A stretch of DNA of 39,802 bases. Source: an uncultured Coriobacteriales bacterium. Its GTDB lineage: Bacteria; Actinomycetota; Coriobacteriia; WRKU01; JAENWW01. Shown here in pieces: positions 4,937 through 39,802 of the stretch (positions are counted from its first letter, which is position 1; every line of letters starts with the position of its first letter). The DNA is taken from assembly GCA_937858655.1 (NCBI GenBank), contig CALLZE010000003.1:1-39802 (forward strand), written 5' to 3'. The notes beneath the pieces are model-generated. The model was not told where the DNA came from. It ran no database searches and saw only the letters and a list, made by a program, of their open reading frames with translations. The translations under genes and the position numbers were made by a program.

Positions 4937-5667
4937 TGGAGCCTATGCGTCTCCAGAAATACTTGGCTCGCGCTGGCGTGGCTTCGCGTCGCGCTAGTGA
5001 ACGGATAATTGAGCAAGGACGCGTCGCGGTTAATGGCGCCATCGTCACCGACCAGGGCTGCAAAGTCACGCCTAGCATTGACGTTGTCACCCTCGACAAT
5101 AAGCCCGTATCACTTGTTGAGGAAAATGTGACGTTTATGCTCAATAAGCCGACGGGAGTCATTTCAAGCATGGGCGATCCTTTTGATCGCACAACCGTCG
5201 AAGAATATCTCCCTCTTGATGAATATCCCAGTTTGTTTCCTGTCGGTCGCTTGGACGAGGACACAACAGGTCTTCTTCTCTTCACCACCGACGGACACCT
5301 TGGTCATGAGCTTCTTCATCCCAAAAATAAAGTCGAAAAAACGTACCAAGTGACGGTTGAGGGAATGCTGACTCCCGCTCGGATAGCGCAATTGAGCGAA
5401 GGGGTGCAACTTGATGACGGAGTCACCGCGCCAGCGCGCGTAGGGCATATTGAGCAAATGCGCACAACAACTATGTTCGACCTCACAATTCATGAAGGAA
5501 AAAAGCGTGAGGTGCGACGGATGTGTCAGGCGCTTCATTTGCCTGTCATTGCTCTTCATCGTCATACGTTTGCTGGCATAGAGTTAGGGAGTTTACCCCT
5601 CGGGCATGTTCGACAATTAACGCAAGAAGAAGTAGACATTTTGAAGAAAGCCATTACGGACGCCTAA
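4936..5667 (+). CDS. rluB: RsuA/RluB-family rRNA pseudouridine synthase
   Basis: Predicted to isomerise a specific uridine in rRNA to pseudouridine, most likely in 23S rRNA by analogy with RluB genes next to scpB. The N-terminal S4 RNA-binding domain spans roughly residues 3-60 (MRLQKYLARAGVASRRASE). The catalytic domain carries the family motif FPVGRLDEDTTGLLL with the catalytic Asp at D107, plus KTYQVTVEG and GKKREVRRM. The 243-residue length is normal. The start codon overlaps the scpB stop (TAATG). RsuA versus RluB specificity cannot be decided from motifs alone; the scpAB neighbourhood favours RluB. Confidence 0.93.
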   Translation: MEPMRLQKYLARAGVASRRASERIIEQGRVAVNGAIVTDQGCKVTPSIDVVTLDNKPVSLVEENVTFMLNKPTGVISSMGDPFDRTTVEEYLPLDEYPSLFPVGRLDEDTTGLLLFTTDGHLGHELLHPKNKVEKTYQVTVEGMLTPARIAQLSEGVQLDDGVTAPARVGHIEQMRTTTMFDLTIHEGKKREVRRMCQALHLPVIALHRHTFAGIELGSLPLGHVRQLTQEEVDILKKAITDA

Positions 5668-38249: not shown

Positions 38250-38278
38250 TTGACTACGAACATTTGTTCGCTTATCAT
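38250..38278 (+). promoter_or_regulatory. Promoter of recA
   Basis: TTGACT (38250-38255), 17-base spacer, TATCAT (38273-38278). Both hexamers match the consensus at five of six positions. Transcription is expected to start near 38285. Confidence 0.8.
38257..38270 (+). promoter_or_regulatory. LexA (SOS) box at recA
   Basis: CGAACATTTGTTCG is a perfect 5-bp palindrome around ATTT, matching the Gram-positive/actinobacterial consensus CGAACNNNNGTTCG exactly. It lies inside the spacer of the recA promoter, so LexA binding would block RNA polymerase directly. This implies DNA-damage induction of recA and probably recX. Confidence 0.92.
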
Positions 38279-38309: not shown

Positions 38310-39350
38310 ATGGACGCACAACAAGAAAAAATGCTTGATCTTACCCGTGATCAAATTGAGAAGAAATTTGGTAAGGGTTCAATTATGCGCTACGGAGACA
38401 CCGATGGCGTTGTCAAAATGGATGTTATTCCTACGGGTTCACTTTCGCTTGATGCCGCTTTGGGCATAGGCGGTATTCCTCGTGGTCGAATTATTGAGAT
38501 ATACGGACCAGAATCAAGTGGTAAAACAACGCTAGCGCTCCAGATGGCAGCTGAGGCTCAGGCTCTAGGAGGCGTTGCTGCAATTATCGACGCTGAGCAT
38601 GCGCTTGATCCAAGTTACGCATCTCGCTTAGGCGTTGATATCGACGATATTCTCATTTCGCAGCCAGATACTGGAGAGCAGGGTCTCGAGATTGCCGATA
38701 TGCTCGTACGTTCAGGTGCAGTCGATATCATTATCGTAGACTCAGTTGCAGCGCTTGTGCCTCGAGCAGAAATCGAAGGTGAAATGGGAGATGTTACCGT
38801 TGGACTTCAGGCACGACTAATGTCCCAGGCTCTTCGCAAGTTGGCTGGTTCTTTAAGTAAGTCGAATACAACCTGCGTCTTTATTAATCAGTTGCGTGAA
38901 AAAATTGGCGTCATGTACGGTAATCCAGAGACCACAACGGGTGGTCGCGCACTGAAGTTCTTCTCAACGGTGCGTATTGATATCCGCCGTATTGACTACA
39001 TAAAGCAAGGTCCCGATATTATTGGTAACCGCGTGCGTGCAAAGGTTGTTAAAAACAAGGTCGCTCCTCCTTTCCGCATCGCCGAATTTGACCTTATGTA
39101 TGGAGAAGGAATCAGCAAAGAAGGTTGTATTGTTGACCTTGCTGTGCAAGAAGGTATCATCCAAAAATCTGGATCATGGTATTCATATGACTCCGATCGT
39201 CTTGGACAAGGACGCGAAGCCGCTAAAGATGTTTTAAAAAACAACCCAGATTTACGTGATGAGATTGAGGCCAAGGTTCGTGAAGCGCTCGGTCTTATTG
39301 AAGAAACCCCTAAAAAAAGCAAGAAAACTGAGACAAAAGAAGACGCATAA
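38310..39350 (+). CDS. recA: Recombinase RecA
   Basis: DNA strand-exchange ATPase of homologous repair and co-protease for LexA. The 346-residue protein is full length. Walker A is GPESSGKTT (residues 66-74), with the catalytic region [21 protein letters not shown] and loop L2 around [15 protein letters not shown]. The acidic/lysine tail ([15 protein letters not shown]) is normal. GAGGAG precedes the ATG at 38310. The SOS promoter and LexA box lie just upstream, and recX follows 3 bases after the stop. Confidence 0.98.
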
Positions 39351-39353
39351 CGC

Positions 39354-39794
39354 ATGCTTACGATAAGCTCAATAGACACGCCTCAAAAGAAATCTAACCT
39401 CAGGCGTGTCTATTTTTCTGAAACAGGCGAGTACGAAAAAATACCGCAACAAGTGGTTCGCTTGCATGACCTCTCAGTCGGCATGTCTTTTAATAGTCTT
39501 GAAGAATTTCATGCTCTTGTTTCAAATGATCAGTATAATCTTGCGAAAGAGCGCGCTTTACGCATTCTTGCGCGAAGCGAAAAAACAACTCACGAAGTCA
39601 GTAAGAAGCTTAAAGAAGATGGCTATTTCGAAACTACCATATCCGAAGTCATTTCTTTTCTTGAAGAATACAAGCTTTGTGATGATGCAGATTTTGCGTC
39701 ACGGTACGTACAACAGCAATTATCACTGGGGCTTCCTCCTCAAAAAATCAAATTCAAGCTCTCTCAACGTGGAATTTCAAGAGACCTGATTTGA
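39354..39794 (+). CDS. recX: RecX family regulator, probably C-terminally truncated
   Basis: RecX binds RecA filaments and limits recombination. The 146-residue reading frame shows the N-terminal region typical of longer RecX forms (RRVYFSETGEYEKIPQQV), then the first three-helix repeat (YNLAKERALRILARSEKTTHEVSKKL) and the second (VISFLEEYKLCDDADFASRYVQQQL). It ends at RGISRDLI, where the third repeat should continue. The stop falls in the inverted repeat at the very end of the window, so the truncation may not be real. The start at 39354 has only a weak AGAAGA upstream. A terminator-like hairpin lies within codons 8-22. Confidence 0.78.
   Translation: MLTISSIDTPQKKSNLRRVYFSETGEYEKIPQQVVRLHDLSVGMSFNSLEEFHALVSNDQYNLAKERALRILARSEKTTHEVSKKLKEDGYFETTISEVISFLEEYKLCDDADFASRYVQQQLSLGLPPQKIKFKLSQRGISRDLI
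39375..39417 (+). terminator. Terminator-like hairpin inside the start of recX
   Basis: GACACGCCT (39375-39383) pairs perfectly with AGGCGTGTC (39402-39410) around an 18-base loop. AATA upstream continues the pairing with TATT downstream (13 bp in all), and TATTTTT follows at 39411-39417. It is 25 bases after the recA stop, where an intrinsic terminator would be expected, but it lies in recX coding sequence. It could reduce recX expression relative to recA by partial termination. Confidence 0.65.
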
Positions 39795-39802
39795 AATTCC
39801 AC
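39769..39802. repeat. Perfect 12-bp inverted repeat at the window end
   Basis: GTGGAATTTCAA (39769-39780) and TTGAAATTCCAC (39791-39802) are exact reverse complements around a 10-base spacer. The second arm ends precisely at the last base given, so it could extend further. It contains the recX stop codon. No T-run is visible within the window. Confidence 0.8.

Follow-up and report, generated by a model that had tools for sequence, protein, structure and literature searches.

A hairpin within the first recX codons as a candidate attenuator of the recA transcript in an uncultured Coriobacteriales bacterium

The recA–recX Locus

The stretch of DNA analysed here (39,802 nucleotides, referred to below as the window) belongs to an uncultured member of the Coriobacteriales and carries recA and recX near its right end, on the same strand (Table 1). 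The recX ATG follows the recA stop codon after a gap of 3 nt. The likely promoter of recA holds an SOS box, CGAACATTTGTTCG, in its spacer. At the sequence level recA thus has the marks of LexA control, with CGAACNNNNGTTCG boxes located 5' of recA in six of the ten members of the window's order whose loci were checked, five of them other than the window.

Table 1. Positions of the genes and signals at the recA–recX junction of the window
Feature	Position	Strand	Basis or content
Likely recA promoter	38250–38278	+	TTGACT, 17 nt, TATCAT; SOS (LexA) box CGAACATTTGTTCG at 38257–38270 within the spacer
recA coding sequence	38310–39350	+	ORF; Pfam RecA (E 4.5e-135) and RecA_C (2e-27)
recX reading frame	39354–39794	+	ORF; Pfam RecX_HTH1 (9.5e-12) and RecX_HTH2 (7e-8); N-terminus conserved in the sister genus (G001)
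Hairpin, 5' arm	39371–39383	+	AATAGACACGCCT; recX codons S-I-D-T-P
Hairpin, 3' arm	39402–39414	+	AGGCGTGTCTATT; recX codons R-R-V-Y-F
U-tract	39413–39417	+	TTTTT; T 1–2 base-paired in the stem, T 3–5 unpaired; codons F-S

The 3' end of recX is probably cut by the contig end, and its apparent stop codon (39792–39794) is probably not real. An inverted repeat, GTGGAATTTCA ... TGAAATTCCAC (39769–39802), closes the contig and generates this stop codon, and the window ends 8 bases past it. The contig's final 11 bases are reverse-complementary to GTGGAATTTCA, which lies a few bases upstream of them; the stop is therefore probably an artefact of assembly, and the terminal repeat as a whole is probably of the fold-back kind. 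The RecX proteins of relatives run about 60 residues beyond this point; the remaining part was looked for across the rest of the genome and was not found. The evidence from the N-terminal part of recX is unaffected by the truncation.

Structure of the Hairpin

A preliminary description of this DNA had reported a terminator hairpin after recA with its onset at 39375, 25 bases after the recA stop. The hairpin is real, but 39375 lies inside the 5' arm; the stem starts at 39371, and the distance from the recA stop is 21 nt, within a few bases of the earlier value. The recX codons 8–22 named there are the correct ones for a hairpin spanning 39375–39417. The full element extends from +21 to +64 relative to the recA stop, within recX codons 6–21, and its stem begins 17 nt beyond the recX ATG. 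It consists of 13 perfect Watson-Crick pairs, six of them G-C, which enclose a loop of 18 nt and are followed by TTTCTG. The predicted RNA fold has an energy of −18.6 kcal/mol against a mean of −5.5 for shuffled sequences (z −6.5), a stability reached by none of 200 shuffles, and in an 80-nt context z is −4.65. A simple terminator scan missed the hairpin because it capped loops at 8 nt.

The pairing goes beyond what the protein needs. When the segment was recoded with the RecX amino acids held fixed and synonymous codons drawn at the frequencies found in the window, an equal stability was reached by 39 of 120,000 recoded sequences (p about 3e-4). Rare codons occur in both arms, ATA accounting for 12% of Ile and AGG for 4% of Arg among the window codons. 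The protein sequence alone does not account for the stem.

Two features of intrinsic terminators are present in the window, a stable G+C-rich stem-loop and a U-tract directly behind the stem, the latter being weak in G001 and in several other relatives. The loops of intrinsic terminators typically measure 3–8 nt, while that of the window has 18 nt and those of relatives 3–28 nt; a short loop is typical but not strictly defining, so the 18-nt loop lowers the certainty of assignment to this class without excluding it, and the claim made here is that the element works like an intrinsic terminator. As in an attenuator of the E. coli type, the hairpin lies after recA, before most of recX and on the recA strand.

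The Hairpin in the Order of the Window

The window's genus contains no other genome and its family one other, G001, from a sister genus; the nearest named relatives of the window's MAG include Eggerthellales MAGs. The N-terminus of RecX reads MITISSIDTPNPRQRARRVYF in G001 and MLTISSIDTPQKKSNLRRVYF in the window. The residues encoded by both arms are kept between the two, whereas the loop residues differ. At the nucleotide level, the 11 bases ATAGACACGCC are identical, and each of the four codons preceding them (T, I, S, S) carries a synonymous difference. In G001 the hairpin is composed of a 9-bp outer stem and a different inner stem of 5 bp and reaches the same −18.6 kcal/mol, with a poorer tail of only UUCGUUG.

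In the window's order, RecX starts with a block of 15 codons, I-(D/E)-...-(R/C)-R-x-x-F, which aligns without gaps between family f1 (the window and G001) and family f2 (G003, G004 and G005). The stem falls on the same nucleotides in all five sequences, base i pairing with base 43−i, and five pairs have changed on both sides. The covariation in this register is 0.294, compared with 0.118 in shuffled alignments, none of which reached it in 500 trials, and slid registers give at most 0.15. For five sequences this is suggestive, not overwhelming, evidence of compensatory change. Family f3 of the same order has no stem in the register of f1 and f2. Two further relatives from the order, L012 and L013, have a RecX without the N-terminal domain, and in these a strong stem is found between recA and recX instead.

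These comparisons bear on two earlier claims. The first, that the segment serves both as protein code and as hairpin, is supported: the arm residues are kept in G001, and in the relatives checked the pairing is not lost where the amino acids are kept, compensatory changes appearing to preserve it. The second, offered as an alternative, was that the true recX start lies downstream. A start 3' of the hairpin is disfavoured by the conservation of the arm residues in G001 and by the gap-free N-terminal block in other families; G001 retains ISSIDTP and RRVYF, so recX likely does begin at the upstream codon, 39354.

The recX gene of G001 is itself split, its first part lying at a contig edge (L241, end of G001:C4) and its C-terminal part on L248 (G001:C16). 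The sequence at the break is common to three contig ends and is followed by a transposase-like ORF, MHSQEQRQKAVQLFIEGGKSK, so that the gene looks interrupted by an insertion element. A 14-base match, GACCTGATTTGAAA, connects the end of the window with an insertion in G001. A shared insertion element was considered and rejected because GACCTGATT is ordinary recX coding sequence (DLI) in the window.

Survey of the Coriobacteriia and of Other Loci

The strongest simple hairpin in each 80-nt segment along the locus has been compared with shuffled sequences in 96 genomes of the class Coriobacteriia. The mean z is −1.35 in the 80 nt past the recA stop, against values between −0.36 and +0.13 inside recA and between about −0.2 and 0 over most of recX; the sole other rise lies at about +720 to +900, near the recX end. 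At a threshold of p<0.01 against 200 shuffles, a significant hairpin is present within the first 130 nt at 31 of the 96 recA 3' junctions, representing 11 of the 17 sampled families, and about two thirds of the sampled genomes show no significant stem under this strict test. Other tight co-directional junctions, taken as controls from 20 of the surveyed neighbourhoods and from the window, carry such stems in 12 of 174 cases (7%), which is also somewhat above chance. Among the 29 significant cases with recX identified, 27 have the entire hairpin downstream of the earliest codon at which recX could start, and 20 have it past an ATG. The synonymous test with amino acids fixed is positive at 22 of 92 junctions and in 8 of 265 control windows inside recX.

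The eight bases past the 31 significant stems contain 34% U, compared with 20% in the next 200 nt (Wilcoxon P 0.0014), and in many class members a strong stem is followed by a poor U-tract. Since the genomes are related, the P values of the survey (Fisher P 1e-7 for the junctions, P 1e-8 for the synonymous test) overstate the independence of the observations, and the number of families represented is the more cautious guide. In a strand test, the ratio of GU to AC pairs is 35:17 at the recA junctions and 52:36 in controls. Terminators at the recX end were used as a yardstick, with only five significant ones, which are few for a comparison of tails.

Within the class, three members of genus g20 have stems of 13–16 bp on ELEVR/RASSS codons, with the tails TTTTTC, CTTTTC and TTTTCC, that is, TTTTC after the stem in all three. 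In five members of families f8 and f10 the stem is one nucleotide out of register. Both groups agree with the picture of putative compensatory change. The stems differ among lineages and the junction site is the same, which indicates a lasting position with a stem that is formed anew.

Beyond the class, the shuffle test gives a hairpin at p<0.01 in 11 of 59 other loci with recX adjoining recA, a few of which belong to class members. The stems outside the class measure 17 bp in Micromonospora, 16 bp in Cellulomonas, 15 bp in Nocardioides, 14 bp in Brevibacterium and 13 bp in Alloscardovia, and their tails are mostly not U-rich. The arrangement had been called unusual at the outset; it turns out to be recurrent in the Coriobacteriia and in several other Actinomycetota. 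The loci L028 and L041 (Micromonospora), L051 (Cellulomonas) and L093 (Nocardioides), all from high-GC Actinomycetota, have stems of 15–17 bp in the recX codons right behind recA, without U-tracts.

Proposed Function and Alternatives

The hairpin and its U-tract are likely to be an intrinsic terminator or attenuator of the LexA-controlled recA transcript, made of the first codons of recX. This reading as an attenuator that limits recX is based on the location on the same strand at +21 to +64, the SOS box CGAACATTTGTTCG, the U-tract and the precedent in E. coli, and its placement within recX may be put down to the lack of intergenic room. From the arrangement we infer termination, its efficiency, the RecA:RecX ratio and any link to translation. 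Most polymerases would halt at about 39417, giving recA mRNA, and a minority would read through to give a recA–recX mRNA from which RecX would be translated starting at 39354. With the terminator inside the recX frame, RecX would be made from read-through transcripts only. A single promoter would in this way supply RecA, which forms filaments and is needed in bulk, in far greater amounts than RecX, the partner that limits those filaments. As a refinement, ribosomes re-initiating on recX, three bases past the recA stop, could melt the stem, in which case recX translation and recA termination would compete.

A more general form of this proposal is that the N-terminal RecX codons across the Coriobacteriia and other Actinomycetota with tight recA–recX pairs are selected as a recA terminator, a dual-coding attenuator that is lineage-wide and repeatedly rebuilt, and that recX translation melts the stem and sets the read-through and the RecA:RecX ratio in the SOS response. 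We put this forward only tentatively, as a possibility with well below even chances.

Against a terminator stand the long loop of 18 nt and the short U-tract with three unpaired U, as well as the large share of sampled genomes with no significant stem and the stems at 7% of the other tight junctions. Loop and U-tract, together with the weak tails in many relatives, leave room for RNA-stabilising or translational roles. The hairpin could act on the finished mRNA, either as a processing site or as a shield of the 3' end against exonucleases, and the recA mRNA would then outlive the recX part. Such a role is in line with the better conservation of stem strength than of the U-tract, and stable stems in E. 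coli also shield 3' ends that Rho-dependent termination has produced (discussed in PMC8780764). It is nevertheless unlikely in view of the U-rich tails above background behind the stems and the TTTTC directly behind the stem in several relatives; processing would, moreover, still require removal of the recX part.

Control of recX translation, in which ribosomes are slowed or blocked just past the start codon and transcription is not ended, is decidedly improbable. Most stems lie no more than about 60 nt from the recX start and, in related genomes, track the recX codons instead of keeping a fixed distance from the recA stop, as such control would lead one to expect. On the other hand, a stem that sets in 17 nt past the ATG is for the most part clear of the initiation footprint, and ribosomes in elongation unwind stems of this kind. 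U-rich tails would be unexpected for translational control, and in L012 and L013 the stem is upstream of the recX start.

Amino-acid and codon usage at the recX start, with the stem as a mere side effect, would account for the similar stems seen in 12 of the 174 control junctions, the LARAGVASRRASE start of rluB among them, but synonymous recoding destroys the stem and the apparent compensatory changes preserve it, which contradicts this explanation and makes it very improbable. A role at the level of the DNA itself, for instance as a binding site for a protein or as a mobile palindrome, would fit the perfect inverted repeat but deserves almost no credence: it is contradicted by the sequence turnover among relatives that retain the pairing, a search of Rfam for a known RNA family gave nothing at or near threshold, and the arm core GACACGCC is at chance frequency in the genome (27 occurrences, 23 for the reversed control), on which ground a mobile or repeated palindrome was rejected.

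Comparison with Known Systems

Throttling of a downstream gene by a terminator is known for recX, dnaG and gluQ-rs (PMC3542578). In E. coli, a terminator lies between recA and recX, and a read-through of 5–10% supplies the recX mRNA (Pages et al. 2003, as quoted in PMC6662834 and PMC3542578). The two systems share the gene pair, the site after an SOS-controlled recA and a hairpin followed by a U-rich tail. As scored here, however, the E. coli stem has 9 bp and lies at +19 to +40 in a non-coding gap of 68 bp, whereas the window has a gap of 3 bp and a 13-bp stem composed of recX codons.

The dksA-gluQ-rs terminator of Shigella flexneri also lies at the beginning of the downstream gene, with one candidate AUG in its bulge, and mutation of its stem raised downstream expression more than 2-fold (PMC3542578). 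The authors place this terminator in the intergenic region, and a second candidate AUG lies 27 nt downstream (PMC3542578); in the window, by contrast, each arm codes for conserved amino acids of the downstream product. Mycobacteria are likewise Actinomycetota in which recX adjoins or overlaps recA and is co-transcribed with it; M. tuberculosis differs in an extra promoter inside recA that raises recX (PMC3062782), and the searched text of that source has no mention of a hairpin or terminator between the two genes.

No description of a recA terminator within recX codons was found in a search of the open literature. A Term-seq study of Streptomyces discarded all 3' ends except intergenic ones, allowing no more than 10 bp of overlap with the following gene (PMC8780764). 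Such a filter would discard terminators within the first codons of the next gene, and a blind spot is exposed in which at least one Term-seq study would hide embedded terminators. An attenuator of the proposed kind would be a compact and testable answer to how RecA can outnumber its inhibitor when the two genes have no space between them, one stretch of DNA seeming both to encode a protein and to set its amount. As the stems turn over and the location persists, the junction is a handy natural series for overlapping protein and RNA selection.

Stems in Other Genes

The opening rluB codons of the window (LARAGVASRRASE), directly behind scpB, contain a 12-bp stem at 4970–4998 that may merely reflect repetitive residues of the S4 domain. 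In two genomes of one genus (L191:13436–13540 and L192:13313–13420), a stem of 13–15 bp occupies the opening codons of the gene that follows rny, 3' of recA–recX, which suggests that embedded stems are not limited to recX.
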